Origin: Strigamia acuminata
Lineage: Eukaryota > Arthropoda > Chilopoda > Geophilomorpha > Linotaeniidae
Reading direction: 5' to 3'
Length of the DNA stretch: 64,000 nt
NCBI GenBank assembly: GCA_949358305.1
Contig: OX442319.1
Coordinates: 10,912,001 to 10,976,000 of the forward strand
Shown: positions 11,465-62,544 of the stretch, piece after piece
Numbering within the stretch: position 1 is the first letter of the stretch
Layout: each line of letters begins with the position of its first letter
Translations under genes and position numbers: made by a program
Notes under the pieces: generated by a model
Told to the model about the DNA's origin: nothing
Databases searched by the model: none
The model's input: the letters and a program-made list of their open reading frames with translations, nothing else

Positions 11465-11535
11465 TAATTTTTATGCTTAGTTAAATGTATTTTCAAGCGA
11501 TAATTTAGATTACAGGAATAAGCACACAAATGTCA
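11465..11535 (-). pseudogene. Remnant of finger 9 beyond the premature stop
   Basis: Reading the frame of the gene above past TGA gives a finger lacking only its first Cys and ending HKN then TAA, exactly like the end of the paralogue at 15345. This shows that the stop is a recent single-base change. Confidence 0.8.
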
Positions 11536-12234: not shown

Positions 12235-12720
12235 TTTTGTTATTTTCAAGCAACAGATTTCCAGCTTTACGTGTCAGCTAATCGTACCAAAATTATGTTC
12301 TTCTGAAATTTAAAAAAAAAAAAAATTAATTAGTTTCGAATAGATGTAATTTAATCGGGCGATGTTTAATTAAGAAAGTCATGTACTAGTTATTACTACT
12401 ACTACTCTGAACAGAAAAAACACGCCCCAATAGCCAATTGCAAGTGATACACCCGAAATTGAGTTAGGCCTACCGTTAGGCCTAACGTTTGATGCACCGA
12501 CTACGCCGAACATTTATGAACGGAAAAAACTAAAATTAGCATTAAAAGAACGTAACTCACGGGTTTCTCCTCTACTTTTAGCAATCCCTAGCTACTGTTT
12601 TTGAAGAGTATAGTTTTAACTGATTTTAACTTTTTTAAATTCGATCCAAATAATAGAGATTCCTGCTAAGTGCTAATGCATCTGACATTTGCAAACGGTA
12701 TTGTTACCAGGTTTGGCCAC

Positions 12721-19460: not shown

Positions 19461-19477
19461 TTGGCGCAGTGAACTCG
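19461..19477 (+). promoter_or_regulatory. Primer binding site of the gypsy element
   Basis: TTGGCGCAGTGAACTCG abuts the LTR. TGGCGCAGT is the start of the PBS in several insect gypsy-group elements that use tRNA-Ser. The exact tRNA has not been checked here. Confidence 0.6.
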
Positions 19478-40088: not shown

Positions 40089-40332
40089 CATGTGGCACAT
40101 TAGGCACATACAGTTGAAGTTGCCCAGAAAACCATCAGGTACACCCTGGAGGCCGGGAAAGTTGGCAAACCGATCTTAGTACGATTTTGACACTGCACAA
40201 AAAAGAAAATACGGAAAACTTTTGCTGAAAAATATCAATATTCACTACAAAATTCAGAAATTATTGATTTGCATCGCATGTGGATAGCGCTTAGCTTACT
40301 AATTTAAAACATGAAAAGAGATTAATAATTCT

Positions 40333-40437
40333 GGCTGGCAATTTATTTTCAAGGTGATAATTACAAATTTTACTTTGAGAGGTAAAATGTGTAATTATTT
40401 ATCATGAAAATAAATTGAAATTAATTTTGTTGCCAGA
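40333..40437. repeat. Palindromic GGCTGGCAA element
   Basis: GGCTGGCAATTTATTTTC at the left pairs imperfectly with GAAAATAAATTG...TTGCCAG at the right. It is duplicated at 61913-62018 in front of copy D; copies A and B keep only the left arm in their 3' flanks. Confidence 0.5.
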
Positions 40438-40974: not shown

Positions 40975-43900
40975 TTAATTTTGGGTTGATTGTTTTCTCC
41001 GAATTGTTACGTGGTGAGAAGGGGATTTTAAAACTGTCGTCACGGCGTAAGGCATGTGTGGATGGTGACGAACTGTTACGAGGTTGGTTGGTTGCGATTG
41101 GTGGGAATGAAGCAGCACCCGCTTCCTGATCGAAGGATGTACAGTACGACGTTTAATTATAGAAGCACATTTGTGGAATAATAATTCCACAATCAAGGCT
41201 GCTACTGACAATAAAAGTCCAACAGCAAGACAAGCAAAAGCTGAAATGGTGTGGTATAAACCGACGGGCTCAACTATAGCATCATTCTTTTTCAAACACA
41301 TTTGAGGTTTGTGAATTTCAATTATCCTGGACAGGATTCCCGTTTCTTTTAACTTCAAAAATCTGAAAGAATGTTTGGATTTTAGTGATTATGTTTAAAA
41401 ATAAGTTAATTTTTACTGTGCAGCAGGGTGGTGTGGAAATTAAGTTTTGTGTTATTTATTATACTCTGGTTCGACTCAAGAGTATGCCCTTCTAAGAGCC
41501 GCATTACTCCTAACTCAAGTTTTATTACTACCACTAGGAAAAGTAGTTTTTATTTTTATTATGATTTGTGATTGTTATTACCATTTAAGTTGATATAATT
41601 TTGATTATTTTTATACTTATTATACTTATTAAACTTATTAAATAAAGTTCTATGAACATATGAATGAAAAACTCGTTTGTTATGGTGTTTGGGTCTACAT
41701 TTTTGGATCACTACACCAGTGATGCGGCTCTTAGAAGGGCATACTCTTGAGTCGAACCAGAGTATAGTCGGTTTACAAAAGAAAATAGAGAAAAAAGTAT
41801 ACTTTTGATTAAAAATGTCCGAGTGTTTTGATCGTTTTTTAAATCTGAAATAATGCCATACAGGTATAGGAATTTTTATAAAACTAAGTCCACAAATATT
41901 TCCATATCTGAACTGCAGAAGGTTATAGCCTTGAAGGATGGCATTGTTATGAAAACGAAGTGCGTAATATCCGTCATTGAACTTAAATCTTTCAGTTTTC
42001 TGAAGACGGTGCCACACCTTTAACGTAAAATCAGTATCTGCAGCCTGGAATTGCAAGAATTTTTTAGCAAATTAATGAGATAATGCAGTGATAATAATGT
42101 TATTGAAAATAATTTCATATTACCTGAATCGAATTGTATGCTGTGGTTCCAGTGATACCATATAATTTAACTTGATCATCTGAAAGTATATCCTCGATGC
42201 TGTTGTACTTCTCATGAGTTGTAGTGACAGTTAACGATGTGTACAAGACAGCATTGTAACTCAAAAATAACATCATAACCAAGATATTCCTTGTGTACGT
42301 TATCAGAAGAACTGTGGCAAAAAGATCGACTCGAGTCAGATAAGCTACACTAGAATAATTGTTAAAGTTAGTAATATTATGCTAATTATTAAATTCTAGC
42401 CTAATTACTAACTTTACAAATTATACATGTGTATTTATTGTCATAATGATCTACGGTATATTTTTTTAATTTAAATAGTTGTAACCTGAGGTTGATGTGG
42501 AGATTTTTCTTCGGTTTCTCATAATCAAACTTAAAGTGGAATTGATTATCGCATATGTAGCACAAATGCAAAACCACACGGACGAGGAAAATGGTTTCAG
42601 AAATGTCATCCATAAATATTCTTCTACATTAGTATTTTGTCTGATAACAACTCCCAAAGTAGTTCTTAGAAGCGGAAAAACTGACGGTTCAAGATTTTTT
42701 AACATTCTTGCAGCAAATTCTGCTATTACGAGTCTCCAATCAATTTGCTGAATAAAACGAAATAAAATAGAACAGATAAATGAATGAATGAAATAATATA
42801 CAGTATAATATAATGTAGAACTTTACATTACGAGATGTTGGCCTAGCCATAAATGTTGAACTGCAAAGATTGAATAAGTTTTTCAATTTTTCAATTTTTG
42901 TTTTATTTTATTTTTCAATTAGAATAAATATTTGTTTTATGCAAAAACAATGTGAAATGGTTTTTTTCACACATCTATCACATACTTTTGACAAATACAT
43001 GCACCTTTTTTAGCAAAAACAAAAAAAATTGGCTGAGGCAAAACTTTATTCGCTGACTTCAACTAATACAAAGATTTGCATACTATTTGGGAACGCAAGA
43101 CTTGGTGCATGTCTGTCTGCCTGCTACCTTGTTTCATCATATTTTGCCCTCGGCAAGTGTTGCGATCTCAAATGTTCACTTCATTTGTGGAGAGGTTTTT
43201 CTACCACGTTTTTAAGATATTATTTATATTTTAACCATAATCATTAGAATTGTGTTTTTTGCCGTGCACCTGTTGCGCTTTTGGGCAATTGGCCCAGAAG
43301 CTGTAACGGCTGCCCTGGCATTTTGAGCCCTGGATTGGGGCGTTGCTAAGTCAATCCCCAAATTTTGCACCGTTGCTAGGGCTGAAGCGTGCCTTGGCAC
43401 ACGCCACGCCTGCGCACTGGCCGTTTTCCGGCCATATTCCGGGTAATAATTCGAATTATTACTCACTCTTTGCATCACACTCATACCGTTCACACCGACA
43501 CAGCTTTGTTCACAACCAAAAACACTGTTTTGTCCGTGACTCGTGAGTTTTGCCAAGTTTCAACCCGATTTGTTTGAACCAACGTTCAAACGAATCACTT
43601 TCCGAGCCGCGAAGACGACGCACGACGGCCCAAACCACCGTCGTTCCCGCCGCCGCCCGAAGACCAACGCGCCCACGCCGTTGAAGATCGACGCCAGCCA
43701 GCCGCCGAGGATTGCAGAGCCATCGTCGCCGCTCCTCGACCTGTTGACGACGATTCCGATTCAGATTGCAGCGGATCTCCAGTCAGGTTTTAACGATCGG
43801 CGGTACCCGCCGTTTGACTACTTGTCTCCAACGGAAATCTCCCGTTGCAATCTAGGGTTTAACCCAAGATTTCCCGTCTTGTCAGGCTTAACAGCCGACA

Positions 43901-46900
43901 CTCTTTGTGAAGTCTTTCGGCTTCACGCTTCCTTTCTCACTTCGCAGAATTTGCGCGGCGACGAGTCGCCATTTCTGCACTGCTTTTTCCCGCCCGAAGG
44001 AGTCCCGCGCTGCTTCGAGCACGTCGCCTTCTACGCCGACGATCTTATCCTCATAGAACCCATCTTTTTAACATTCTCTTCAATAGAACCTGTAATTAAC
44101 GCTCAATAAATTGATTAACTGTTTGATTTAAAATAACTAAACTAGCCTTTATTCGAGATCAAATCCCTAGACACCGACTTAACGGCTAACCCACCCGATA
44201 GAAGACCTATAAACGGCATTCAACTGCTTCCACAGGTGAACGCCGGGATCTCTTGCAATTGGAAAAATCCCATAGTGACTAAATATAAATTTAGTGTTGT
44301 TGTGAAAAGTCAATTGGAACCATCAGGAACGCAACACTTGGGGGCCTGGCCGGGATAACCAATTGTTTAAACTTAGAATTTATTCCTACTTTCCTATCAT
44401 CTTTCTCTCTTATCTGTCTAACTCAGTATGTCAAACTCAGAAGGAGAAATTCCTATTGATGATGAAGGAGTACAGACTCGTGCAAAGGCGGGCGCTAAGC
44501 GCCGTAGATCGGGTCGTCCTCGAACGGCACGTAATAGTCTAACGGCTCAACATGTAGCCGAAACTATTGACGTTGTTGCCGCCGAGGGTGCCACGACTAA
44601 GGAAGTTGGAACAGTCGGCGAAGAACGCGAAGAAGCGATTTCCGCTGGACCAACAAACTGGGGTGACTCTTCCATGGATTTGGACAACATCGAGATTCCT
44701 GATACGCAACCGGTGGGTTACAAGGAACTTCTGGATCGAGCAATTCTCCAGGGGGTACAAGTGACTGATCAGATGACGATTATGGAAATTTACGAAGCCA
44801 TGTCCAATCATGAAAGAAAACGCCTGGTTGACCACATGAACGAGCAGATGGCTGCTGTTACTCGAAAAATGAACTTAGAGTCTCAAGCCAAGGAAGCTGC
44901 TGAAAAATCGAATCAAGCTTTGCGAGAGATAAACGCTCAGTACCGTCACAGTGAAGAAAAACTGAAAAAACAATCGGACGAACTGGAGCGCCAACGCATG
45001 GAATTCGATGCTCGAAAGAAACATTTGTCTAAAAAAGAGACTGAAGTTTTCAAAAGGGAACAGGAGATTGCTTGGGATTCCATAAAACAACAGGAATCAT
45101 CTAATGAAGAACTCCGTAGACAAATGGCAGCCGCCGACAAAAAAGCTCAAGAAACTGAAGATGAGCTACGGCGAGCCAAATTGCTGAAAGAACAAGAGGA
45201 ATTTGAGGAGGAACAAGAACGAATACGTGTTGCTGAATTCGCCTCACGACAGAAAGGTCCAGCCGCCAAGGTGAAAAAGAAAGTCGTGCGGCTAGAAGAT
45301 TCTGCAACCGACGAATCGTCTCAAACATCAAGTGAAGATGAGCGACAGTCGCGCAAAAGAAGATGTTCCAATGCTGAGGGGCCTACATCAAAAAAGAACG
45401 GCGCTTCAGATGCCGAAATTTTCACTAATAGCGACAAACTCATGACCATGATGGATGAGAGAAATCGTATGAAGATACAGGACGATTCACATCGGTCCAA
45501 CAATAATTACGATAATTATGACCAGTCCGGAAGTCGAAGTGCGTCTCCAGACCCCGAAGATCGTGATAAGGGGGATGAACGTCGGAACCATGACGATGTA
45601 CCTCCGCCACGAGGGTCGAAGGACGAATCCCTTTCGGAAGGCGAAAAATCTACTCGATCTGAGACGCGGAAAGAACGAAAGAGTCGTTCAAGGACGAAAT
45701 CCAGAAGATCTCGGTCCAGCGATGAACGTTATTACACCGCTGAACAGATCGACGCGATGTTTCAAAAACAAGCGCAGTCAGCAAGTCGAACCACACGGCT
45801 AGCAGAGTTACGTAAATTCGACTTGAAGCGCAAAATTGCGAAATACACCACTGATAAGTGGCGGCATAAAATTGCCGATGTGAAAACAATTCGATGGGAT
45901 CGATTAGTCCCTGATCGTTTTAATGGAGAATTCCAAATGGGATCAACCTTTTTGGAAGAAATTACAAGAATGGCTCGATTAAATGGTATAACACCTCAAG
46001 ATACTTTGGAGAAGTTAGTCCCAAAATCATTGGTGGCACGCGCCGAAAATTGGTTCGTTGAACGAGAATTCGTGCACTGGAATCAATTTGTAGAAGCATT
46101 CATGCGAGAATACGCTGAACCCACTGAAGACATCTATCAATTATGGGACAACTTAGCTCAATCAGCGGGAGAAGACATTCGTTCCTATCTCCGCCGAACC
46201 GAAGATTTGTTGTCATCATTACCAACGCCATCTACTGACCATGATGTGGACAGAAAATTTCGAAAGGCGATGACACCATATTCCCGAAGTATTCTGCAAA
46301 ATGTTGATGCACCACCGGTCGGATCATTCAAAGAACTCTCCCAATTTTTAAGGGATAATGACCTGAGAATCGAAGAAAAGTATAATGAATATTTGACTCC
46401 GGAGGAGACTGCAGCTATTAAAAAACGGCAGTTACGCATTAAAGAATATGTGAAAGAAGCTAGACTTGGACAAGCTCCTTTAATGCAACCCCGAGATCGA
46501 GGGGATTACTTTGCGGAGAAGACGGATAAAACTACAAGTGCCGGACCTCCGAACCCTCACAAACTACCCAAAAATTCTCGAGCTTACGCGAATCTTGCCT
46601 TGTCGGAAGACAGCACTGATGTAGTCGAAGAAGACGACCCAGGGCTAGACCCTTTAGTTGAGAATGCTATTGTATTACTCGCGAAGCATGTCACTGAGAA
46701 TAAATTCAGACCAAAAATGGTTGGAAAAAACGTTACTTTTAATACAGCAAACCTTAATACAGATGCTCGATCAAAATCACCTTTGCCGCTACCCATCAAA
46801 CCCGAAGTGATTCCGGATACTGAAAAGGAATCGGCTACAGATAAAAAAGCCGTAGAACCTCGCTCAAAGTCGCCCACTTCAGGAAACGGTCCTAGGCGCA

Positions 46901-49900
46901 AATCGCCAGAAACCGATCCGTGCCATAGATGTGGAAAGTTGGGGCATTGGTCGAATCAGTGTCCTGATAGAAGTCCAGTCGCTGCCGAGATAGAAGGTCT
47001 TGTCAGCAAGTTGGGGGAGCTGCTCCGAAAAAACTTGTGAGCGCGGGTTTGGCAGCGAATACGCTGAAACTCGCGCCAGTTGCCTCGGAAACAATTAAGG
47101 AGATAGACGCCGACGTTTGTCCCAAGATCGAAGTAACCCATGATTACCGTGAACCATTGGATAAAAACTATTTAGACTACTGGGATTCAGTAGATAAAAA
47201 ACATTTGATGGTAGCTCAGTTTAAACCATGTGACCTGAAATTTCCTAAAGTTGACCTTACTAAACTTAACGAAGTATTGGCCGAAAAAACGGCCGACAAA
47301 CGATACTTTCAATATCACGTTAGGAAAGCGTTACAGTGCTACCCCAAACCAAGTAAAAACTGGATGGATAAACTTTGGGAAAAATTCCGTCCCAAGTCGA
47401 AAGAGGTCGATGAAATTGAAGAAATGACAAGAGCTATGGAAAGAGTCGTTCTGTCATATAACGATGAAATGGACGAACTTCCTATTGATTATCCTGCCTT
47501 AGAACATCGGATACGTAGAGTCACCTGCAATTTGAACATGGAAGATTTTACGGGAATTCCGAAAATACAACTACAGACCATGAAAGGACCAATTACTGGA
47601 TTATTGGATTCTGGAGCCAATAGAAGCTTTATGGCGGCTTCAGTGATGGAAAATCTGAAATTAGAAAAAGAATTACGGTACATTTCGCCAAGTCTCTGTA
47701 TTGGAACGGCTGGCAAAGATATTCAACCAGTCGGAACCCTGTTGCTGTCATTTCGATGGACACATGGAGTCCTTGTGCATCCTTTCATAGTTATTGAACA
47801 CCGTTTCCCGATGATTTTACTGGGAAATGATTTCATGAAGCGGCTAAGCATACAGCCGAATCCGAAAACGATGTCATGGAATTTTATTACTCCATTGACC
47901 GAAACTTTACCATATATACCGCAGTCAGTTTTGGACAGATATAAAACCAAAATTGAAGAATTACCGCCAGACAATGCTACATTTGTATGTAATGAAGGAA
48001 TTTTGGCTGGCGCAGCTACTCTGAAAATGGGAGATGATATCACCAAAATGGTGAATGATGCCAATCTGACATTGGAGCAAGGACTCTCATTGGCGGAAAT
48101 ATTAAAGAGACGACAGAGAATTCTATCGAGAGTTCCTGGACGTACACACATAGTGCAGCACGATATCAAGCTGACCACTGATAAACCTATAAGGGTACCA
48201 TTTAAAAGTTATAACCCTCAGAAAAGGGAAATAATTCGGCAAATCTGTCAGGATATGGTAGACAAGGGGATTGCTGTGCCTGCCACTGGAGATTATGCCA
48301 TGCGAATTGTTTTAGTGGTCAAACCGGGGGCCGAACCACGCCTCTGTGTAGATTATCGGCCATTAAACGAACATACAGAATATGATCCTCCTCAGATGCC
48401 GACAATCGAAGAAATTTTAAGAGAAATTGGTTCATTTGAGTGGGTCACCACAATCGACTTGACAAAAGGCTATTGGCAGATAGGTTTGACCCCGTCTGCA
48501 CAGCCGAAAACGGCTTTTTGGAGCCCTATAGGCCGATTGATGTTTTTAGTTATGGCATTTGGACTGAAAAATGCGCCGACTAGTTTCCAACGTTTAATTG
48601 AGAAAGTCCTCGATGAGATGTATAGGCGGCAAGCTTGGGCGTACCTGGACGATATCATAACTGTTTCAAAGACATATGAAGAGCATTTAATCAATGTCGA
48701 CAAAATTTTAGGAAAATTAGAACAAGCTAATTTGTGTGTCAACCCGGATAAGTCGAAATTCTGTAGAAAAGAATTGATTTTTCTTGGGTACAAATTAGGA
48801 ACCGGCGGACTCGCCGTTGACCCTAAGAAGTTGGATGCAATTACGAAATTTCCAACCCCAACCAATTTAAAAGAACTTCAACGTTTTTTGGGGATGGTTA
48901 ACTTTTTCCATCGACTTTTAAAAAATTTATCAGTCATGGCCGAACCATTGAGGCCTTTATTGAAAAAGGATATGGATTTCAATTGGCAACCCAGTCATCA
49001 AGAGGCTTTTGAAAAAATTAAAAAGGCCCTCACTGATTCAGGAACAATGGCCATGCCAGATCTGTATCAACCTTTCATAATTCATACGGACGCCAGTCGT
49101 CAAGGATTGGGCGCCGCATTGATGCAAATCCAACCTGAAAGGGGTGGACAAGAAGAGCTACCTTGCGTTTATTCAAGCCGTAGCTTGCAGCCGGCTGAAG
49201 TAAATTACACGGCTACTGAATTAGAGTGTTTGGCCGTTGTTTGGGCGCTGAGAAAATATCGCCCTTACATCGAATTTACCAAATTCACCGTTCAAACGGA
49301 TCATCAGGCCTTGAAATGGCTAATGTCTCTGGAAGAACCGGCAGGACGTCTAGCGCGGTGGCAACTCGAATTAATGGCGTATACATTTGAAATCCAGTAT
49401 ATTAAAGGGCCGTTAAACGTATTGGCCGATGCTTTGTCTCGAGCTCCTGTCTGCACGCCCGAGGAAGATAACGTAGACGGTGAAGATGACGATTTACTGG
49501 CGTATTGTCCATCGCCATATCGACACTGGAAGCTGGGGGGACCAAATCAGCTTCCCACATCGGAAGTTATTGAAGACGAGAGAATAATCAATTTTTGGTC
49601 GCATGCTTATGATCCTCCTAATATTGAATCTGATGAAAAAATTCATCTCATGATGACTCAAGAGTTTGAATTCCCGTCATCCAATGTCCTCGTCCACGCT
49701 TTTGCAGCTAACGTTGTGAAGAAATTAGAATGTGAGCCACCTACAAGAGAAGAAATTATTGTTGGGCAAAAACAAGATAAGGAATGCCAAAAAATTCGAA
49801 ATTTCCTGCTCAATGGTTGTTACCCTCCTGAACTTAAGCACGCGATGAGCAAGAGACGTTTTAAACGAAAGGCGTCCGCTTATCTAATTGAAGAAGATTT

Positions 49901-52900
49901 ACTTCTAAAATTCCATCCGACTCTAACCGATGAGTTAGGAGAAAACGGAAGAGCGTTGAAAGTCGTTGTACCGGAGAATCTCGTTTACAGAGTCATCTGG
50001 ACAGCTCACGGACACCCGTTGTCTGGACACAGTGGTATTACTCGAACGATGTATCGAGCTAGAAGAATCTACGCATGGCCGACGATGAAACGAGATATTA
50101 CTCGCTTTATCAAACATTGTCAACGCTGCCAGGCTTGCAAGCCAAGGCAAAAATTAGAAATTGAAGCAGCTCAAATGGGTCCGTATGCTCCCTTTGATTG
50201 CTTGAGTGCTGATCTCATGGGGCCTAAACCAAAAACTCCACGAGGTAACACTCACATACTCGTTATAATCGATGTCGCTACAAAATGGCCAGAGATGCGG
50301 CCAATGTCGAAACCAACTTCGGCTAAAATAGCTGATTGTATTTATAATTTATCACTGCAATTTGGCTTTCCACGCAAAATACTGTCTGATAATGGCTCGC
50401 AATTTAGATCGCAAGTATACCAGAAGTTTTGCGAGAAATTCAAAATGTTACCGGCTTATACTTCGCCGTACCATCCTCAGGCGAATCCTGTTGAAAGAAC
50501 CAACAGAGATATTAAATATTTGATTGCTTTATACACTGACGTTCACACCCGTTGGGATGAATATTTACGAGAATTCGCCTTTAGTCTGCGAACTACGGTC
50601 GCAGCCGGAAGAGAATTCTCACCGGCTTATTTAAATTTCGGCAGAGAATTGAGAGTGCCGTGGGATCCACGCTTGCCAGATGAAGTTCTTGTCGTAGACC
50701 CAAAAAATCCTCATGTTTACATTCATCAACTGGAGAAAGTGCTCGCAAGCACCTATCAGCACATGATGTCGCATGTATTTGATCTACAAAAAAGAGTGCA
50801 AGATCACCAATCAGAGAAGAAATTCGATAATTTCAAAGTGAACGACTTAGTCTGGAAAAATTCCCATGTATTGTCCAGCGCTGTTAAAGGAATTTCGGCA
50901 GGAATCGCTGATCGCCGAACTGGACCTTTTGCAATTATTCGTGCACATCAAGGCAATGCCTTCGAGTTAAAACGCCTAGAAGATAATGCAAAATTCCCGT
51001 CTATCCACGCATCCGAACTTACACCATATTTCCCTCAATTTACTCAGGAAATTTGGCGGAGGGGAGAGGTGGTGGGACAACCCACTGAAAATAAAATTAA
51101 TACATTATTTGAAGACGAAGTAAAAACTTTACCGTCGCTGCCAAATTCCGATGACGAAGTTGAACACGTGGCAGTTAGTTTTGAAAACATTCAAATAGCC
51201 CAGGATGATCTACAAACCACGTTGGAACCGGCCACAAAGCCGAAAAAAGCAAGGCGCAGATCCATGCTACACCCAGTAGTACCAAAAAATTCAGATGGTG
51301 ACAAAAATACTGAAAAAACGGCTAAAAAATATAACTTGAGAAGCCGGAAATCACCAAAGCAGAGAGTAACTAGTCGATTCTGCGCAGAACGCGGACGACA
51401 AGACAGTACTCTAGTGAGTGATGGAGACATAATGATGTCACATCATTCTAAAAATAGTAATTAAAATGACGTAGTTCATACGGCGACCAATCAGCATCAA
51501 GTTGGGGGACTTTGCAAAAATTTGTTACTTTCCCAAAGTGAAACCACTCCGACAACACACTGATTGGGACGATCCGCCGATTAACGAAGGAAAAGAATAG
51601 ATTCAACTTCGTAAGTGAAACAGTTAGTTTGAAATGATTAGATTTGTCATGAAAAACAAACGGCCCATTCACAGAATCATGGCCGAAGGTGGCGAAGGAC
51701 CGCCCAACATCGATTCGGATTCAGAGCCCGAAAGAAATCTCGTGATGAATCCGCCCGGCGAAATGTTAAATGAAGAATTCGATCTGCAAAATCAGGTGAA
51801 TATCGCCATTGAGAAAATTAAAAAAGCCGTTGAAATGTTAAAATCGGCTGACAAGCGTGTGTATAACCAAGCGCGTCGTACACTCGAAAAATACCGAAAG
51901 TTCGTAAAAACTGAGTCAGATCGTGTTGAAAGTATTTTAAATGAATAGCTCGTTGAATTTCACGTAGTTACGTTCCACTTTTCTATCACAAAAGTTGGCT
52001 AAAAAAGGCCGAGAAAATTTAAACAAAACTTTGTCAGTTCGAAAAATCACTTAACAAATTTTAAATGGCGCCATTTTTTATGATCATGTGACTTCGCCCG
52101 ACGGCTAGTAAGCGTTGTGAGGGAGTTGCCATGACGACGGCGCTCAATTGCCTTTTGCTAGAAAATATGTAAACCAAATAATATTTACCAGTTAATAATT
52201 AAAACTTTCAAACGTTTCTGTAGATTTTAAACGCAATCAATCAACCGTATGCGTTACCCGATTACGTACCCATGGTGACGGGAATCTTTAGAGGCGAATT
52301 ATCCGCCGAAGTCCGACGTTTACGACAACTTGGTCAGACGTGGGAAGATGTGAGACAAGAGTTCTCAAATGCCATCGCCGCACATTGGGGCTGTAGATGC
52401 CGAATTTGTGGACGGCTAATGGTAGCCGACCCCGTTTCCTGGAACCTAAGAATTGATCCGCCATCACCGTTGAGATCCAGATTGCTTTTTGGCTGGCTCT
52501 TTCCCACGGAGGAGGAAGACACGGACTTCTACGGGTTTTTCCGAATTGCCCATGCCAAAAGGAACGATTATTTGGACGCCATCTGGGAGAAACTCAAGGC
52601 CCGGAAGGATGAAGTTATGCGAAAACTACAAGAAGAGCAGGCCTGGTGGGCCGATCGACATAAACATTACGACTTAGCAGATCTCGCCAGTTCACAATAC
52701 GAGATGCACATTCTGGGAATGGCCGGACATTTCGGCCACGCTCGTGCCCGATTCCGTGACTGGGAACGTCAAAGAGACGCTTATCACGACCAAGAACGCA
52801 ATGATAAGCGAGAACGGTCGAGTTCAGTTGCATCAAACGAACCACGTGCCAAGATGACCTGTGGCAATCACCACAATACGGCTTTAAGAGCCGTTGATAA

Positions 52901-55900
52901 TGTTTTGGAAGCCAGAGTTTCACGATGGGACGCGGCTTGCCGATACCCTGGAGGAGTGGATCCATACGTCGCTCGCCCAGGAACCAGACCAGATTTGCTT
53001 CGTGCCAACGGCCGACTCAAGCATCGTGCAGGCCGACAACACCGTGAAAAGTTGGAGCGCGAACGCTTGGCCTTGATGCCACCACCGCCCAAGGACGACG
53101 AATTGCCTGGCCGATGGGATCGCGAAGTCGAAGAGCATTCCATGCAAGTCACCCTTCGCAAGAAAGCAGCGTTGGAGCAACAGCAAGCCGATTGGGATGC
53201 CTGTTTCCAATCGCCTGATGCAGAAGAACCAACGATAGGATCTAATGAAACTTTGATGTTAAATACACCAACGTCAGTGTCCGCCTTGGAGGGAGGAAGT
53301 TCCGCGGAAGTCCACATCGTAGACCGAAGCTACAGAATTTCGCCCCCAACAATGGCCGACAACACGGCCTGTGAATGGAAAAGCTTTCCAAACACACAAA
53401 ATTCGAATGACCAGGCCAACCACCGGCCAATCGAAGGGCCGATTCCTGTAGAGTGTAGAGAGTACACGGATTCCATAAACCCAGACCCGAGTCTTCCAGA
53501 GCCTCGATTGCCCACGAGAAAATTCGGGATGGTATCCCAAGTTTTGAAAAAGGGATTCGATCAGCATTATGACGCCATGTGGCAGGGGTTCTGCGAAGCG
53601 CCGTTAGAGACTCAGGAGATTGAGTTGTCTGACATGGACTTATACCAAATAGCTCAAGTCACCGAGAGTTTGAAAGGTAGTCGTCGTGTCGCCGGCTTGC
53701 TGAACCGAATGGAGCCATCGGGACCCGACGACCCACGTTTAAATGAGTTACAGCGACAGCTTGTGCCGAGTTATCGGAGAATTTTATTTCCCGGGGTGTT
53801 TGACAGCCCGAGACCAGGCTTCGCTGCCACCACGTGCCTAAGAACGGCCGCCATGGCCGTTAAACCTGAATTTCTAGAATGTTGGCGGTCCATCCAATTG
53901 GATCCGCCCACCATGTGCAGCGAATTGATGCGCCAAGTTGCGGTCATTGGGGAAAATCCGGCCGCATCGGCCATTCGTCTCCGACGCGAGTGGGACATGC
54001 GCAAAATCACTTTTCAGCAAGAACTGAAAACAATTCGACCGGCAGGAATGCCGCCGAGGGATCAGACGTCTAAAAGAAAGATGCCAGAAGCCACTTACAC
54101 GCCAACTGCAGCTGCGATCGAGAGCCATGCTGTTGCCCAAACCACGACTGAACCGTCCAACAGTCACGTCGCCATGGAGATAGAAAATTTCGACGATCCA
54201 AGACCTGGACCGAGTCGAGGTCGAGCTACAACCTCAAGTTCAACCACGTTTTTTACACACGTCGAAAACACCAATTTAGGGGCGCGACCCAAAACTCGAC
54301 CGAAACCACGCGGGGCTTTGATACTCCGGCCCGGAGGCAGATCTTGTCACGTAAAACGTCCAGACGAGTCAGCTGCGGCACCCAACCCGCCGACACCACC
54401 AAGGAGCGTGCATTCACCTATTCGAGCGCCCACTCCATCGCCCAAGAAGGACGACCCACCGAAATCACTCCAATCGGCGGCCGGAGCTGCCGAAACCAAG
54501 AAGCAGGAAAGCAGCCCAATTTACATTAAGCTGCGAAGAACGTACCCAAGACTCGAGATGCATCCGCATACGAGGATTTTGCTCAAACACAACGTGGAGC
54601 TTTGCCACCACGTTTTCAACTGGCTTGAGCGGAAGATACGAAAGAAGAGGCCGTGGATGTTGCATCAACGGCTGATCCGAGCTCGCCGACGCCCGTCCAA
54701 CCCGCAAGAATTTTACGAGATGGCGTTTGGAGATGACGCCTTATCCCGACTCATCCGAAGTGTTTGGATACACGTCAACCCCGGCCTGTCATCTGGGCCG
54801 AATACGGGACAACCGTTCATCAATGTTAACGAGAGCGGAAATCCGTTGTCCGACGAGACGGACATGATGTCAATAGACTTGCCTTCACCTAAGACACCCG
54901 AGTAGGCCGATGACGGCCAGAAAACAGAAACAAATCTGGTTGTTTCCGAAAATAAGTCTTTTCGAGAAACGTTTATTTTCATGTACATTCCTTTCATTTA
55001 ATCATTTAATCGCCAATGTTTTTCTTAATGCATGTATTTTCTTTTATATAAAATAAATTCGACTTATCATTATATCAAACTTAGAAAGAAATTTTATCGT
55101 GTTGTAATTAACTAAAAAACAAACAAGAAATTGTAAAAGTTAATTGGGGGGAAGTGTTGCGATCTCAAATGTTCACTTCATTTGTGGAGAGGTTTTTCTA
55201 CCACGTTTTTAAGATATTATTTATATTTTAACCATAATCATTAGAATTGTGTTTTTTGCCGTGCACCTGTTGCGCTTTTGGGCAATTGGCCCAGAAGCTG
55301 TAACGGCTGCCCTGGCATTTTGAGCCCTGGATTGGGGCGTTGCTAAGTCAATCCCCAAATTTTGCACCGTTGCTAGGGCTGAAGCGTGCCTTGGCACACG
55401 CCACGCCTGCGCACTGGCCGTTTTCCGGCCATATTCCGGGTAATAATTCGAATTATTACTCACTCTTTGCATCACACTCATACCGTTCACACCGACACAG
55501 CTTTGTTCACAACCAAAAACACTGTTTTGTCCGTGACTCGTGAGTTTTGCCAAGTTTCAACCCGATTTGTTTGAACCAACGTTCAAACGAATCACTTTCC
55601 GAGCCGCGAAGACGACGCACGACGGCCCAAACCACCGTCGTTCCCGCCGCCGCCCGAAGACCAACGCGCCCACGCCGTTGAAGATCGACGCCAGCCAGCC
55701 GCCGAGGATTGCAGAGCCATCGTCGCCGCTCCTCGACCTGTTGACGACGATTCCGATTCAGATTGCAGCGGATCTCCAGTCAGGTTTTAACGATCGGCGG
55801 TACCCGCCGTTTGACTACTTGTCTCCAACGGAAATCTCCCGTTGCAATCTAGGGTTTAACCCAAGATTTCCCGTCTTGTCAGGCTTAACAGCCGACACTC

Positions 55901-58010
55901 TTTGTGAAGTCTTTCGGCTTCACGCTTCCTTTCTCACTTCGCAGAATTTGCGCGGCGACGAGTCGCCATTTCTGCACTGCTTTTTCCCGCCCGAAGGAGT
56001 CCCGCGCTGCTTCGAGCACGTCGCCTTCTACGCCGACGATCTTATCCTCATAGAACCCATCTTTTTAACATTCTCTTCAATAGAACCTGTAATTAACGCT
56101 CAATAAATTGATTAACTGTTTGATTTAAAATAACTAAACTAGCCTTTATTCGAGATCAAATCCCTAGACACCGACTTAACGGCTAACCCACCCGATAGAA
56201 GACCTATAAACGGCATTCAACTGCTTCCACAGGTGAACGCCGGGATCTCTTGCAATTGGAAAAATCCCATAGTGACTAAATATAAATTTAGTGTTGTTGT
56301 GAAAAGTCAATTGGAACCATCAGGAACGCAACACAATAAAGATAGACTGCAAATTTACGGTATAAAATAATTTCAGGTCACTTCAAAACTTACTGCAGAT
56401 ATTTTGTTGAATAAGTAATATGATAGCAAACGTCGATTAAAACCTATATAAGAACAGTTTAGTAAATAATGTAAATCTAATTTTTTTCATGTACCTGGAG
56501 TGCATTTGTATTGGAGATTTTAAAGCAGCAAATGTTAACATTTGGTTTTTGCATAGAAATATTTTGCTTAACAATGATGTCAAATTGACATTTCTCTGGC
56601 AATTTACAGTTTATATTTAAGTTTGTTTTAGTGTAATAATTTATATTTTTCTTAGATGAACCCTCTAGTGTTTGGTAAGCCAATGAAAACAGGGTGAATT
56701 TCTACAAATAATTATTCTTATGACTTATGCTGTAAGTAAATCATAAAACTTTCCTTCTTACATCACTATGTTCAGAATATACTAAAACATACACTTGATT
56801 TTGCTTGAGTATAATGAGATCTTGTACATATTGAAGCACATTAGATCTTTTCCTTAGAATGGTTTTGTCATTCGTGTAAAATAAGATTTTCTTATTTTCA
56901 GTATTCTTAAAAGTAAGAGGCATTTTGAAGATATACAATGTGAAGAAAAAAATTAATTATGGCAAAGAAAAAGAATAATAAGGATAATATTTTTTACTTG
57001 TATTTTGCCTTTAGAGAATTTTTTAAGCAAGTATGACATATTACTTGTATTCACCCAGATCACGATTAGTTGGTAAGAACTTAAATTATAATCCATTCTG
57101 ATTTGAAACATTGACTTCGATGCTACTTCAATTTTACCAATCCAATGGTTACGGATCAATTTCACCAAACAGTTTGCGTCTGAAATACATTAACTTTTAG
57201 CACGATGGATGAAGAAAAGAAAGTTGGGAATTAATCCATATCAATTAACATTAGAAATTATTGAATTGATTAGTCATTTCCTTCATTCTTTTCTAAATTA
57301 CTGTTTTGAGTAAAATATGAGCTTACATACCCGAAAGATTTCCATAAAGGATGAATATTCTTCTCGTGTTTAGTATTTGTGCAATGTTAGCTACTTGCGA
57401 AATGTGTTGATCATTACATTGAGAAATAGATGATTTGTATAATAAACTGTTTCTTCCGCCTTTAAAAATTAGGGAATGTTGTATTAGAGTTGGTAATTTG
57501 TGCAGAAACCGTTAAAAATGTTGTATGTTTAATTAATCATTATACTGGATGCTTTGCATATTTCCACTGACATATGTCTATAGAAGGTTTGCTGGGTAAA
57601 TGACATCTACACATCCATATCTTATCGATTAAGAGCCGCGGTTCTTATTCAAAACAGCCATTTTTGTCAACAATTACAATTTCCGTTTTTCGTTTGTTAC
57701 ATTTCTTTAATGTAACAAACGAAGTCTGAACGTCACGAACGAAGCGTACGTTCATCGTTCATGAGATTAAATACGGAAACAATACCGTGCTTTTGCAAAA
57801 ATACGGTATTCTTGGTGTCTTAGCCGCGGCTACTATTCGAGGGCGACTCTTAATCGGTAAAATATGTACTTCAAATTCTACTCCTTTGGAGTAATGCAAT
57901 AGACAAATAAGTTTAAAGTTTAATAAATAATTACTTGTTAAATCTCTTAGTGTTGCATCAGTATTTACAAATAATATTATCATAAATACAGAAGAAAGTA
58001 TATTTTCCAT
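40975..58010 (-). CDS. Ionotropic receptor copy C, with 13.2-kb element in intron 6
   Basis: Exons: 57935-58010, 57331-57459, 56998-57179, 56762-56905, 56495-56701, 56394-56443, then 42827-42860, 42486-42747, 42124-42311, 41803-42044, 40975-41362 (633 aa if spliced across the retrotransposon). The domain plan is that of copies A and B: signal peptide MENILSSVFMIILFVNTDA, exon 8 with FLKPFSSSVWFCIC, TM2 in exon 9, TM3 in exon 11. Exon 3 has two extra codons relative to copies A and B. One T is missing in the T-run near 40995 compared with A, B and D, so the last residues read RRKQSTQN instead of RRKTINPK. No stop is seen in any exon; whether it is expressed depends on splicing over the insertion. 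A further MITE sits in intron 10. Confidence 0.8.
41462..41764. mobile_element. MITE with ~43-bp perfect TIRs and TA duplication
   Basis: Ends TACTCTGGTTCGACTCAAGA inverted at the right end, perfect for about 43 bp; TA on both sides. 303 bp, no transposase. It lies in intron 10 of copy C and is absent from A, B and D. GGTTCGACTC in the ends resembles a pol III B box, probably by chance. Confidence 0.82.
43157..44337 (+). repeat. 5' LTR of the 13.2-kb element
   Basis: 1181 bp. A TATA-like TATTTATATTTTAA lies near 43222, and AATAAA at 44104-44109 is the likely poly(A) signal. It contains a 188-codon ORF in between. Confidence 0.92.
43543..44109 (+). other. LTR-internal 188-codon ORF without ATG (5' copy)
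   Basis: Open from a GTG at 43543 to a TAA that overlaps AATAAA; there is no methionine codon in the frame, and an in-frame TGA lies 9 bp upstream. The translation begins with a basic Arg-rich stretch (RRSRRRPK) and continues without a recognisable domain (FDYLSPTEISRCNLGF). It could be a spliced exon, a non-AUG ORF or chance openness in GC-rich DNA. An identical copy lies in the 3' LTR. Confidence 0.45.
44338..44355 (+). promoter_or_regulatory. Primer binding site of the 13.2-kb element
   Basis: TTGGGGGCCTGGCCGGGA abuts the LTR. From its second base it resembles the tRNA-Pro PBS known from gammaretroviruses (TGGGGGCTCGTCCGGGAT) at 15 of 18 positions; the tRNA is inferred only. Confidence 0.5.
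44428..47040 (+). CDS. Gag of the 13.2-kb element
   Basis: 870 codons from ATG 44428, far longer than a typical gypsy gag. N-terminal basic stretch (AKRRRSGRPRTARN); a long charged coiled-coil region (about residues 120-290); an acidic/RS-rich linker (SRSRTKSRRSRSSDE); the gag core (RWDRLVPDRFNGEF through WFVEREFVHWNQFVEAFMRE, about 490-670); and one CX2CX4HX4C knuckle (CHRCGKLGHWSNQC, about 832-845). The stop TGA at 47038-47040 lies just after the slippery heptamer, so most ribosomes would end here to give capsid and nucleocapsid, and a minority would shift into pol. Confidence 0.9.
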   Translation: MSNSEGEIPIDDEGVQTRAKAGAKRRRSGRPRTARNSLTAQHVAETIDVVAAEGATTKEVGTVGEEREEAISAGPTNWGDSSMDLDNIEIPDTQPVGYKELLDRAILQGVQVTDQMTIMEIYEAMSNHERKRLVDHMNEQMAAVTRKMNLESQAKEAAEKSNQALREINAQYRHSEEKLKKQSDELERQRMEFDARKKHLSKKETEVFKREQEIAWDSIKQQESSNEELRRQMAAADKKAQETEDELRRAKLLKEQEEFEEEQERIRVAEFASRQKGPAAKVKKKVVRLEDSATDESSQTSSEDERQSRKRRCSNAEGPTSKKNGASDAEIFTNSDKLMTMMDERNRMKIQDDSHRSNNNYDNYDQSGSRSASPDPEDRDKGDERRNHDDVPPPRGSKDESLSEGEKSTRSETRKERKSRSRTKSRRSRSSDERYYTAEQIDAMFQKQAQSASRTTRLAELRKFDLKRKIAKYTTDKWRHKIADVKTIRWDRLVPDRFNGEFQMGSTFLEEITRMARLNGITPQDTLEKLVPKSLVARAENWFVEREFVHWNQFVEAFMREYAEPTEDIYQLWDNLAQSAGEDIRSYLRRTEDLLSSLPTPSTDHDVDRKFRKAMTPYSRSILQNVDAPPVGSFKELSQFLRDNDLRIEEKYNEYLTPEETAAIKKRQLRIKEYVKEARLGQAPLMQPRDRGDYFAEKTDKTTSAGPPNPHKLPKNSRAYANLALSEDSTDVVEEDDPGLDPLVENAIVLLAKHVTENKFRPKMVGKNVTFNTANLNTDARSKSPLPLPIKPEVIPDTEKESATDKKAVEPRSKSPTSGNGPRRKSPETDPCHRCGKLGHWSNQCPDRSPVAAEIEGLVSKLGELLRKNL
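47028..47076 (+). promoter_or_regulatory. -1 programmed ribosomal frameshift signal between gag and pol
   Basis: A AAA AAC at 47028-47034 is in the gag frame as NNA AAA AAC. After a 6-nt spacer (TTGTGA, containing the gag stop) comes a hairpin at 47041-47076: a 10-bp stem GCGCGGGTTT / AAACTCGCGC (one G-U pair), then an inner 5-bp stem CAGCG / CGCTG with loop AATA and a two-base bulge. Pol lies in the -1 frame, as this signal requires. Confidence 0.88.
47034..51464 (+). CDS. Pol of the 13.2-kb element
   Basis: About 1475 codons, no ATG needed because it is entered by -1 shift at 47028-47034. Order: linker; aspartic protease GLLDSGANRSF (47600); reverse transcriptase with CVDYRPLNEH and YLDD (48641); RNase H HTDASRQGLG (49085) and TDHQALKWL; integrase zinc motif HPLSGHSG...CQRCQAC (about 50013-50135); catalytic core D (SADLMGP), D (LSDNGS), E (ANPVER) with 34 residues between the second D and E. 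The C-terminal tail is basic (YNLRSRKSPKQR). All core residues are present. The domain order PR-RT-RH-IN places it in Ty3/gypsy. Confidence 0.92.
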   Translation, partial: LVSAGLAANTLKLAPVASETIKEIDADVCPKIEVTHDYREPLDKNYLDYWDSVDKKHLMVAQFKPCDLKFPKVDLTKLNEVLAEKTADKRYFQYHVRKALQCYPKPSKNWMDKLWEKFRPKSKEVDEIEEMTRAMERVVLSYNDEMDELPIDYPALEHRIRRVTCNLNMEDFTGIPKIQLQTMKGPITGLLDSGANRSFMAASVMENLKLEKELRYISPSLCIGTAGKDIQPVGTLLLSFRWTHGVLVHPFIVIEHRFPMILLGNDFMKRLSIQPNPKTMSWNFITPLTETLPYIPQSVLDRYKTKIEELPPDNATFVCNEGILAGAATLKMGDDITKMVNDANLTLEQGLSLAEILKRRQRILSRVPGRTHIVQHDIKLTTDKPIRVPFKSYNPQKREIIRQICQDMVDKGIAVPATGDYAMRIVLVVKPGAEPRLCVDYRPLNEHTEYDPPQMPTIEEILREIGSFEWVTTIDLTKGYWQIGLTPSAQPKTAFWSPIGRLMFLVMAFGLKNAPTSFQRLIEKVLDEMYRRQAWAYLDDIITVSKTYEEHLINVDKILGKLEQANLCVNPDKSKFCRKELIFLGYKLGTGGLAVDPKKLDAITKFPTPTNLKELQRFLGMVNFFHRLLKNLSVMAEPLRPLLKKDMDFNWQPSHQEAFEKIKKALTDSGTMAMPDLYQPFIIHTDASRQGLGAALMQIQPERGGQEELPCVYSSRSLQPAEVNYTATELECLAVVWALRKYRPYIEFTKFTVQTDHQALKWLMSLEEPAGRLARWQLELMAYTFEIQYIKGPLNVLADALSRAPVCTPEEDNVDGEDDDLLAYCPSPYRHWKLGGPNQLPTSEVIEDERIINFWSHAYDPPNIESDEKIHLMMTQEFEFPSSNVLVHAFAANVVKKLECEPPTREEIIVGQKQDKECQKIRNFLLNGCYPPELKHAMSKRRFKRKASAYLIEEDLLLKFHPTLTDELGENGRALKVVVPENLVYRVIWTAHGHPLSGHSGITRTMYRARRIYAWPTMKRDITRFIKHCQRCQACKPRQKLEIEAAQMGPYAPFDCLSADLMGPKPKTPRGNTHILVIIDVATKWPEMRPMSKPTSAKIADCIYNLSLQFGFPRKILSDNGSQFRSQVYQKFCEKFKMLPAYTSPYHPQANPVERTNRDIKYLIALYTDVHTRWDEYLREFAFSLRTTVAAGREFSPAYLNFGRELRVPWDPRLPDEVLVVDPKNPHVYIHQLEKVLASTYQHMMSHVFDLQKRVQDHQSEKKFDNFKVNDLVWKNSHVLSSAVKGISAGIADRRTGPFAIIRAHQGNAFELKRLEDNAKFPSIHASELTPYFPQFTQEIWRRGEVVGQPTENKINTLFEDEVKTLPSLPNSDDEVEHVAVSFENIQIAQDDLQTTLEPATKPKKARRRSMLHPVVPKNSDGDKNTEKTAKKYNLRSRKSPKQRVTSRFCAERGRQDSTLVSDGDIMMSHHSKNSN
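51634..51948 (+). CDS. ORF3 of the 13.2-kb element, small helical protein
   Basis: 104 codons, ATG at 51634, 169 bp after the pol stop. An acidic middle (DSDSEPERN) is followed by a Lys/Glu-rich predicted amphipathic helix (residues about 48-104, VNIAIEKIKKAVEMLKSAD). No signal peptide, transmembrane segment or zinc motif. A consensus-like splice donor (GTAAGT) lies at 51611, just upstream. I do not recognise a family. It might be a real accessory protein or a short frame of no significance. Confidence 0.55.
   Translation: MIRFVMKNKRPIHRIMAEGGEGPPNIDSDSEPERNLVMNPPGEMLNEEFDLQNQVNIAIEKIKKAVEMLKSADKRVYNQARRTLEKYRKFVKTESDRVESILNE
52272..54905 (+). CDS. ORF4 of the 13.2-kb element, 877-aa protein of unknown function
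   Basis: An open frame of 877 codons between pol and the 3' LTR, ATG in good context (CCCATGG). A good acceptor (TTTCTGTAG) ends at 52223, so a spliced subgenomic mRNA is likely. Visible features: cysteines near residue 42 (GCRCRICGRLM), Trp-rich charged helical N-terminal half (EEQAWWADRHKHYD, RFRDWERQRDAYHDQERNDK), a Pro-rich disordered region (about 680-740, PNPPTPPRSVHSP) and a basic C-terminal module (WLERKIRKKRPWMLHQRLIR). There is no signal peptide, hydrophobic fusion segment or transmembrane anchor, so it is unlike an envelope protein. No known domain recognised. Confidence 0.82.
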   Translation: MVTGIFRGELSAEVRRLRQLGQTWEDVRQEFSNAIAAHWGCRCRICGRLMVADPVSWNLRIDPPSPLRSRLLFGWLFPTEEEDTDFYGFFRIAHAKRNDYLDAIWEKLKARKDEVMRKLQEEQAWWADRHKHYDLADLASSQYEMHILGMAGHFGHARARFRDWERQRDAYHDQERNDKRERSSSVASNEPRAKMTCGNHHNTALRAVDNVLEARVSRWDAACRYPGGVDPYVARPGTRPDLLRANGRLKHRAGRQHREKLERERLALMPPPPKDDELPGRWDREVEEHSMQVTLRKKAALEQQQADWDACFQSPDAEEPTIGSNETLMLNTPTSVSALEGGSSAEVHIVDRSYRISPPTMADNTACEWKSFPNTQNSNDQANHRPIEGPIPVECREYTDSINPDPSLPEPRLPTRKFGMVSQVLKKGFDQHYDAMWQGFCEAPLETQEIELSDMDLYQIAQVTESLKGSRRVAGLLNRMEPSGPDDPRLNELQRQLVPSYRRILFPGVFDSPRPGFAATTCLRTAAMAVKPEFLECWRSIQLDPPTMCSELMRQVAVIGENPAASAIRLRREWDMRKITFQQELKTIRPAGMPPRDQTSKRKMPEATYTPTAAAIESHAVAQTTTEPSNSHVAMEIENFDDPRPGPSRGRATTSSSTTFFTHVENTNLGARPKTRPKPRGALILRPGGRSCHVKRPDESAAAPNPPTPPRSVHSPIRAPTPSPKKDDPPKSLQSAAGAAETKKQESSPIYIKLRRTYPRLEMHPHTRILLKHNVELCHHVFNWLERKIRKKRPWMLHQRLIRARRRPSNPQEFYEMAFGDDALSRLIRSVWIHVNPGLSSGPNTGQPFINVNESGNPLSDETDMMSIDLPSPKTPE
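55143..55153 (+). promoter_or_regulatory. Polypurine tract of the 13.2-kb element
   Basis: TTGGGGGGAA directly before the 3' LTR, the expected plus-strand primer site. Confidence 0.75.
55154..56334 (+). repeat. 3' LTR of the 13.2-kb element
   Basis: 1181 bp; no difference from the 5' LTR seen by eye, including the internal ORF at 55540-56106. Confidence 0.92.
55540..56106 (+). other. LTR-internal 188-codon ORF without ATG (3' copy)
   Basis: Same translation as 43543-44109. In this position it would be at the 3' end of the genomic RNA, downstream of ORF4. Confidence 0.45.
57622..57865. mobile_element. Probable MITE in intron 1 of IR copy C
   Basis: An insertion relative to copy A (between ACATCCA and TACTTCAAATTC/TACTTTAAATTC). 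Its ends share CGATTAAGAG in inverted orientation. Inside is a perfect 12-bp hairpin CGTTTGTTACAT / ATGTAACAAACG around 57692-57722. No ORF. Family unknown. Confidence 0.55.
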
Positions 58011-61099: not shown

Positions 61100-62544
61100 A
61101 CCAAAACATGGAAAGCTTATTACCATCAGATAAAAATATAGGACGACAGCTCTGTAAAACTCTCGTTTTAAACATTACAATTAAGTTTCATGAATACTAT
61201 TTCAACGGTTTCTTCAGTCTTGTTTGTTAATTACATGTCAGCAGTTTGTGTCTCAAGTACTGCTATTTGGAAAATATAAAATGACATTTTGGTAAAATTC
61301 TCGTTTTAAACATTATAATTCTTTTCCGCTGTTGGGAGTGACAGAACACTGAGGAAATAAACTACAATTATTAAGTAGAATGGTTTCTTCAGGCTTGTTT
61401 GGTTAATCACATGTCAGCAGTAAGATTCTCAGAAACTATGTTGTTATGTATAGAAAACAACCATTTTCTCATTAATTAATTTATTGTTTTTATATACATT
61501 ATAATTTACTGAATGCAGTCTTTCCTGGTCGATCAATTTATTGACCAGATTCATTGAAATTTTGCTATTCCATTTGTGTGGCCATTTCTTGGTAATATTT
61601 AGGTGAGGCAAGCAGTGAAAATGCCACCACCTTCAACCTCACACTTACCAAGTAGGGTAGAAAAGGGTTTGGGTCGCAAGACAAGACAGGATCTTACAAT
61701 TCCTGCCCCTGAACACCTGTTTTTAATTTTCCTCTTCTTCTAAAGATGGCAAGCATTTCTTCATTCCAACACTTTGAGACTGCAGAGAAAAAAAAATACG
61801 GAAAACGTTTGCTGAGAAATATCAATATTCACTCTACAATTCAGAAATTATTGATTTGCATCGCATGTGGATTAGCTTACTAATTTAAAACATGAAAAGA
61901 AATTAATAATTCAGGCTGGCAATTTATTTTCAAGGTAATAAATCCAAATTTTACTTTGAGAGGTACAATGTGTAATTATTTACCTTGAAAATAAATTGAA
62001 ATTGATTTTGTTGCCAGCCTTAGATATCGAACAAATTTGGTTAAGCAGTGAATGCGACCATTTTTATAGTTACTACATAAAACACATTTAATTACTAAAA
62101 ATGCCATATGCTAATGTCTCCATCACAATCACCAAGAAAATCTTTACATATTAAATATGACATCTTAGGAATATTGTCCAACTCAAGATTCCAATTCGTT
62201 TTTAACTATCGGGAATAGAGCGTTATTGCATGAAAATGCACATACTGATAATATAAAGAAAAACAGGAAAAACACACAAGGAAAATTTTAAAAACATCTT
62301 TGAAGTAAATAATTATTCTATTAATGTACACTACACTGAACGTAATTGCCAACAATGCAAATGATGTTATTACCTCAAGATACACGTTTTGTGCTGACTG
62401 ATGTGAAATTTAAACTGTAAAAACACAGTTGCTATATTTATATGCATAATTGACAAAGTGAAGGAATGCAACTACACGTAATTTTGAGTATTTCGTCTTT
62501 GCTTTCTGAATCTTTTGCTGAATCATGTTGAAGTGGTTGCACTC
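61100..62544. other. Spacer before IR copy D, no gene seen
   Basis: AT-rich. 61790-62540 is a duplicate of 40215-40975, the 3' flank of copy C, including the palindromic GGCTGGCAA element at 61913-62018. This supports block duplication of gene plus flank. Confidence 0.6.

Follow-up and report, generated by a model that had tools for sequence, protein, structure and literature searches.

Extra genes between pol and the 3′ long terminal repeat (LTR) are common in LTR retrotransposons, and few of them have a known role. The sole studied non-Env regulator in this position that we found for an animal element is CERV, from the Ty3/gypsy element Cer1 of C. elegans. According to the published account (PMC10309623), CERV is a spliced, non-Env protein of 517 residues that exports the unspliced genomic RNA; its first three exons are in the gag frame, it has an essential cysteine loop, it diverges fast and it is described as having no known relatives outside nematodes. 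Smaller frames occur in the mdg1 group (sORF1 and sORF2), where 7 out of 22 consensus sequences from Lepidoptera carry sORF2 genes 3′ of pol (PMC11952523). Here we analyse a gene in the same position in a Ty3/gypsy-type retrotransposon of the centipede Strigamia acuminata (contig OX442319.1, positions 10,912,001 to 10,976,000; this stretch of 64,000 nucleotides (nt) is hereafter the window, and positions are those of the window). A sequence-only reading of the window had described two genes between pol and the 3′ LTR, both on the + strand: open reading frame (ORF) 3, of 104 codons (51634-51948), and ORF4, of 877 codons (52272-54905). Both frames are indeed open there, and the element is Ty3/gypsy-like with identical LTRs, as had been stated. 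The two-gene interpretation did not survive: because an intron loss in related elements fuses the two frames exactly and in phase, ORF3 and ORF4 are best read as exons of one spliced gene, directly so in the relatives and by homology in the window.

Exon structure of the post-pol gene

The decisive evidence comes from other elements of the same genome. The flanks of distant ORF4 and pol matches are further gag-pol elements, forming two families, B and C (the window's own family being A), each with an ORF4 homologue 3′ of pol. In family B the ORF3-like and ORF4-like frames are about 350 nt apart (351 in locus L042), and one copy, L037, is devoid of precisely that segment: where its relatives read ACACGACCGG/GTAAAT...TTTTACAG/ATCATCC, L037 reads ACACGACCGGATCATCC. 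The loss is an exact GT..AG removal which fuses the frames in phase 0, and L037 is a recent insertion because its LTRs are identical over 1084 nt. The established explanation of exact intron losses is the reverse transcription of spliced RNA. The post-pol region of family B is thus one gene with an internal intron, composed of two exons joined in phase 0, of which the short one is acidic and has an ATG of its own. A second intron-less copy, L047, turned up among five further B loci, with a frame that stays open across the junction up to the end of the 1-kb stretch. It is closer to two copies that retain the intron, L010 (17 differences in 889 positions) and L042 (18 in 895), than to L037 (35 in 894), and L037 is nearest to L048 (11 in 554); these pairwise distances are most simply read as two independent losses. 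Genomic RNA lacking the intron was thus reverse-transcribed and re-inserted in family B, apparently on two occasions, which shows that the genomic RNA of this family meets the splicing machinery. In total, intron 2 is gone from 2 of 14 distinct B loci and its donor is kept in the other 12; the acceptor pattern was unmatched in L011 and L046, and yet a spliced junction was not found there either.

By homology, ORF3 and a 5′-extended ORF4 of the window would be the same two exons, with a predicted protein of 75 + 893 = 968 residues (Table 1). The start of ORF4 had been placed at ATG 52272. The frame is open for 16 codons 5′ of this ATG, up to the TAG that ends TTTCTGTAG, the predicted acceptor at 52223, and homology continues up to it: starting with the first one past the acceptor, the residues in between (ILNAINQPYALPDYVP) align with IERDRETPFALPDHVP of family C. 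Translation therefore most likely does not begin at ATG 52272. The nearest in-frame stop 5′ of exon 3 is the acceptor's own TAG in family A and in 12 of 13 C loci; in L035 (family C) the acceptor is ACAG and the frame stays open 10 codons further 5′, without a Met. In the 12 unbroken C loci exon 3 has its first Met only 238-242 codons past the acceptor, so the conserved N-terminal part of the C protein can be read only through splicing. The predicted donor GT and acceptor AG of family A are invariant in nine rows (with one A-to-G change at +3), the acceptor ranking only 7th of 29 nearby YAG sites by a simple pyrimidine score.

In all three families GTAAGT is followed by an acceptor shortly 5′ of the ATG that opens the first coding exon, an arrangement suggestive of a short leader exon and a first intron; intron 1 is retained in 14 of 14 B loci and no copy without it was seen. 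Candidate donors scoring at least 7/9 are present in the LTR and in gag, none of them at a position shared by the compared copies of A (one), B (one) and C (two). As a separate observation, a family C locus (L012:7871-9823) has two donor-acceptor pairs of intron 2, one of them apparently inside a split pol, in an arrangement that resembles template switching.

Table 1. Features of the element in the window, with the evidence for each.
Feature	Position	Strand	Evidence
Ty3/gypsy-type retrotransposon	43155-56334	+	LTRs, gag, pol
5′ LTR	43155..44337	+	Identical to 55152-56334 over 1183 nt
5′ LTR, TG..CA core	43158-44336	+	
Primer-binding-site-like TGGGGGCCTGGCCGGGAT	44339..44356	+	Directly 3′ of 5′ LTR
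gag, 870 codons, CCHC zinc knuckle	44428..47040	+	Pfam zf-CCHC 3.9e-5
Canonical -1 frameshift heptamer A AAA AAC, gag-pol link	47028..47034	+	Phase fits
pol: reverse transcriptase, RNase H, integrase	47037..51464	+	Pfam
Predicted non-coding leader exon or promoter region	51465..51610	+	2 variable of 146 sites, 9 rows
Predicted intron 1, GTAAGT..CACAG, 64 nt	51611..51674	+	0 variable of 68 sites in 51611-51678
Predicted coding exon 2 (ORF3 from ATG 51679), 75 codons	51675..51903	+	Predicted 3′ end TTC/GTAAAA, phase 0
Predicted intron 2, GTAAAA..TTTCTGTAG, 320 nt	51904..52223	+	Protein position matches the B intron loss
Conserved intronic block, E-box-like ATCATGTGAC and RFX X-box-like GTTGCCATGACGAC	52069..52138	+	9 family A rows
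Predicted coding exon 3 (ORF4 extended 5′), 893 codons	52224..54905	+	A, B and C aligned from first residue past acceptor
Polypurine run GGGGGG	55146..55151	+	Directly 5′ of 3′ LTR
3′ LTR	55152..56334	+	Identical to 5′ LTR

Conservation of the gene and its setting

The search of the host genome scored the best candidates only, so that its row counts for ORF4, ORF3 and pol are lower bounds. ORF4 gave at least 72 rows, at least 24 of which cover the full length (one begins at residue 2) with identities of 90-100%, and 22 of the 24 are without a stop; ORF3 gave at least 26 rows, 23 of the 26 being full length and stop-free; and pol gave at least 32, of which 24 belong to the same family (98-100%) and 8 are at 60-61%. 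Retention in other copies had been set beforehand as the test of the claim that the frames are under selection, and the claim held. In a simulation of 500 sequences with matching composition the longest stop-free run was 304 codons, well short of the 877 codons of ORF4. The length of ORF3 is within chance (mean longest run of 164 codons, 500 sequences), and its codon use outscored 500 of 500 shuffles. The ratio of nonsynonymous to synonymous polymorphism (pN/pS), pooled over eight family A copies whose pairs are not independent of one another, is 0.108 for ORF4 (52272-54902), 0.095 for ORF3 (51634-51945) and 0.132 for a C-terminal piece of pol, and 21 of the 29 variable sites in 51634-51903 fall at third codon positions. 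ORF3 and ORF4 are real, kept and under purifying selection. In addition, one locus (G000:C1:23546941-23552729) holds two ORF4 copies in tandem, 0.5 kb apart, from a family A element whose 3′ part is partially duplicated.

The elements of the other two families are equally coding: in the copies read, the stop-to-stop frames of gag and pol span 843 and 1446 codons in B and 1008 and 1422 codons in C. Their exon-3 proteins align along their length with that of the window at 32-35% identity. Nineteen distant ORF4 loci were fetched (13 C, 6 B), and 17 of them have a single open exon-3 frame, L029 and L039 being broken. The pN/pS of exon 3 is 0.118 in B (6 loci) vs 0.195 for the pol piece (5 loci), and 0.143 in C (12 loci) vs 0.240 (9 loci), so that in each of families A, B and C the post-pol gene is below the C-terminal piece of pol. 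This shows that the long exon is conserved in three element families of the host genome, with purifying selection in each. Within exon 3 of B (L042:2215-2850 and like spots in other B loci), most copies keep another frame open, for up to 212 codons, which may be an effect of composition.

The non-coding sequence around the predicted exons is conserved as well in the nine family A rows. Between 51465 and 51678 only 2 of 214 sites vary, vs 29 of 225 in the adjoining exon. Inside intron 2, the 70 nt from 52069 to 52138 are without substitutions and differ by a single 1-nt indel, whereas the preceding 29 nt hold 7 variable sites and the following 48 nt hold 9; 52187-52223, acceptor included, is likewise free of substitutions. 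The bounds of the conserved blocks were picked after the data had been seen. The 70-nt block contains GTTGCCATGACGAC, which matches the RFX X-box palindrome consensus at 12 of 14 positions. The best intronic match is 11 of 14 in B and 13 of 14 in C (one intron per family), scores reached by 0, 2 and 0 of 500 simulated introns for A, B and C, respectively, whereas the 1185-nt LTR of family A reaches 10 of 14 at best. In family C, a YY1-like AAATGGCGGC and GTCACGTG are also found, arranged in the order that A shows, and neither was found in B by the patterns used. When whole introns were aligned, shuffles scored as high in 1 of 200 cases for A-C (a similarity above chance), 12 of 200 for B-C (weak) and 188 of 200 for A-B (absent). 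We read the X-box as part of a putative regulatory module; the conserved intron block might possibly also act as an RNA element for export or packaging.

Several protein features had been listed for ORF4: a cysteine cluster (GCRCRICG), Trp-rich blocks, a Pro-rich linker and a basic C-terminus. All are present in the window copy, while the cysteine cluster and the basic C-terminus turned out to be private to family A. The cluster occurs only in the A copy and not in the other 13 rows of a 14-row cross-family alignment; because B and C read otherwise at this position (GTKFRIA and GA(K/R)(G/S)RFIER), it does not represent a zinc finger common to the families. By eye, the B and C rows also lack the basic C-terminus. 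Trp is found in at least 12 of the 14 rows at nine columns, the rows standing for three families and hence at most three independent samples. An N-terminal block, a helical block and a C-terminal block are common to the families, AlphaFold placing eight helices at 438-603 with a block mean predicted local distance difference test (pLDDT) of 56-85 over 451-600. B and, to a smaller extent, C have a linker rich in Arg and Ser, with 10 RS/SR pairs per 60 residues in B and 6 in C, vs 2 in A; Arg/Ser-rich stretches occur in many nuclear RNA-processing proteins.

The post-pol protein matched no Pfam or NCBIfam model at the curated cut-off (best PHROG E-value 0.04), its profile matched no PDB sequence and the structure searches returned no confident match. 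The poorly predicted model gives no ground to call the fold new. Hydropathy found no membrane-length hydrophobic segment in the representatives (A, B L037 and C L023-L025), the 19-residue mean being at most 1.09, and the highest values in the window are 0.80 in ORF4 and 0.14 in ORF3. The view that the gene is not an envelope therefore stands by hydropathy, no dedicated signal-peptide program having been used.

The element itself is young, with LTRs identical over 1183 nt and inverted ends AAGTGTTGCG/CGCAACACTT. A clean target-site duplication could not be read despite the identical LTRs (43150-43157 vs 56334-56340, CAAG vs CAAT). By its LTRs, its gag and a pol order of protease, reverse transcriptase, RNase H and integrase, it would classify as Ty3/gypsy (Metaviridae), the protease being a weak match (gag-asp_proteas, 18.1 bits vs a cut-off of 28.2 in Pfam). 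The zinc knuckle stands at the end of gag, and the frameshift heptamer has counterparts in the same phase, just 5′ of the gag stop, in one B and one C copy (L015 and L016). Stretches similar to TGGGGGCCTGGCCGGGAT, which may resemble tRNA-Pro, are present in one B and two C copies. The gag N-terminus is basic, with GRP or RGRP, in the A, B and C copies read by eye (the window gag from 44428 and the gag starts of L015/L016), a stretch that is presumably AT-hook-like and might contact DNA.

On either side of the element, at 40186-40419 and 61773-62000, lie two direct copies of a ~230-nt repeat, 21.6 kb apart and 91-94% identical (the search reached 62000). Elsewhere in the window, two long frames (19469-24421 and 26283-30524) resemble, by eye, a second Ty3/gypsy-type and a copia-type polyprotein, and arrays of C2H2 zinc fingers with repeated KPFKCHLC units on the minus strand (11533-12249 and 15345-15947) are probably host genes.

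Proposed function and its alternatives

We propose, with a probability of roughly 0.55, that the spliced, non-Env gene (shown in B, in A by homology) encodes a nuclear RNA-handling factor akin to CERV or Rev. By this analogy, the protein would bind the element's own intron-bearing genomic RNA, which would thereby be exported and translated prior to splicing. The protein itself would be translated from a subgenomic RNA made by splicing, whose transcription the conserved non-coding blocks 3′ of pol and inside the intron might start or enhance. Splicing at the predicted sites of A and C, the 5′ end of the mRNA, the nuclear localisation and the export function are what we infer. A bolder version, which we regard as doubtful, is that a large regulator governs how its own genomic RNA is spliced and that the controlled intron doubles as an RFX X-box enhancer tied to germline or ciliated cells; when control fails, spliced RNA would be packaged, giving daughters that keep the gene and lose both intron and enhancer. 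We have lowered our estimate of this version very slightly because B is without the other motifs and the A and B introns do not align.

Several observations weigh against the proposed RNA-handling role and the exon structure behind it: (i), the family A donor, TTC/GTAAAA at 51903/51904, is the best phase-0 candidate and thus a prediction; (ii), intron 2 is retained in 13 of 13 C loci and in 26 of 26 A loci (the two frames being 323-335 nt apart in all of the latter); (iii), the independence of the two B losses rests on pairwise distances, and recombination between copies could spread a single loss; (iv), the hints of RNA binding vary by family, the cysteine cluster being restricted to A and the Arg/Ser-rich linker strongest in B and not in A; and (v), the overall AlphaFold model is poor (mean pLDDT of 39.6, 14 sequences).

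Some of these points bear on the alternatives too. ORF3 and ORF4 could be two separate proteins translated from separate mRNAs, given that each frame has an ATG in the window, that the ORF3 frame continues past the predicted donor to a stop and that this donor is predicted; but this is improbable in view of the exact in-frame fusion at 2 of 14 B loci, the homology to C 5′ of ATG 52272 and the 238-242 codons without Met in C. A single protein could also be a component of the particle, for instance a further matrix- or capsid-like protein that is packaged together with Gag. Its mostly helical prediction, with one better-predicted helical domain (~450-600 of exon 3), would suit such a role, yet it shows no sequence similarity to the Gag of the same element (best BLASTP E 2.8) and matches no Pfam capsid family, and we consider this role unlikely. 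The same holds, a little more strongly, for a suppressor of host silencing, small-RNA or chromatin-based. Strong divergence is common in counter-defence proteins and the families have indeed diverged to 32-35% identity, but the low pN/pS within families gives no indication of an arms race on that time scale and there is no direct support.

The remaining two alternatives appear very improbable. If the gene were a captured host gene still in its host role, the third-position GC of ORF4 (0.53), vs 0.39 in gag and 0.38 in pol, might be explained; however, no host gene was seen among the best-scored candidates, and the fetched ORF4 rows are all element copies (L001-L008, L023-L041) or pieces that match other element parts (L020-L022). 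Any host capture must be old because the gene is common to three element families. Hardly credible at all is a very diverged envelope or fusogen: the location 3′ of pol and the expression from spliced RNA are those of insect errantiviruses (PMC12992720), but the representatives checked have no membrane-length segment (maximum 19-residue mean of 1.09) and no Pfam envelope match. A nuclear RNA-handling factor thus remains the reading that we favour.

Comparison with known systems

Among the systems compared, Cer1 with CERV is the closest. Both elements have a non-Env gene between pol and the 3′ LTR, both make it from a multi-exon spliced mRNA (in B by intron loss, in the window copy presumably) and both must export an intron-bearing genomic RNA. 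Unlike in CERV, the first coding exon has its own ATG 3′ of pol, the cysteine cluster is found in family A only, and the predicted protein has ~968 residues instead of 517. We do not class the gene as a CERV member: with a cysteine cluster that is not conserved, it is set apart from CERV. The idea of a new class of accessory protein was too strong given this precedent (PMC10309623), even though no known family was matched.

The other systems share less. With the Env of insect errantiviruses (PMC12992720), the likeness is the position 3′ of pol and the spliced subgenomic expression; unlike Env, the protein has no membrane-length segment by hydropathy and no Pfam match. The sORFs of the mdg1 group are likewise extra small frames in a Ty3/gypsy element, but sORF2 is described with a transmembrane domain (PMC11952523), whereas exon 2 has none (ORF3 maximum of 0.14) and is not a stand-alone gene; ORF3 also lacks the combination of small size, one transmembrane helix and polybasic stretch that marks a FAST-like sORF2. 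Retand and other plant elements with extra ORFs also carry a coding region between pol and the 3′ LTR that is suspected to be regulatory; according to that account (PMC11963269), the Retand frames are antisense and mostly encode a TRP28 domain, whereas the gene in Strigamia is in sense, spliced and without a Pfam match above the cut-off.

The lineage thus offers a second gene of the CERV kind, with no relatives detected, a distinct exon layout and, within a single genome, three families that have young copies. A natural intron loss fixes its splice junction, the conserved non-coding blocks can be tested, and intron-less daughter elements can evidently arise from the spliced genomic RNA of a Ty3/gypsy-type element. 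If the bolder version, in which the regulator controls the splicing of its own genomic RNA, were true, this would be a CERV- or Rev-like system of independent origin with a visible read-out of its own failures.

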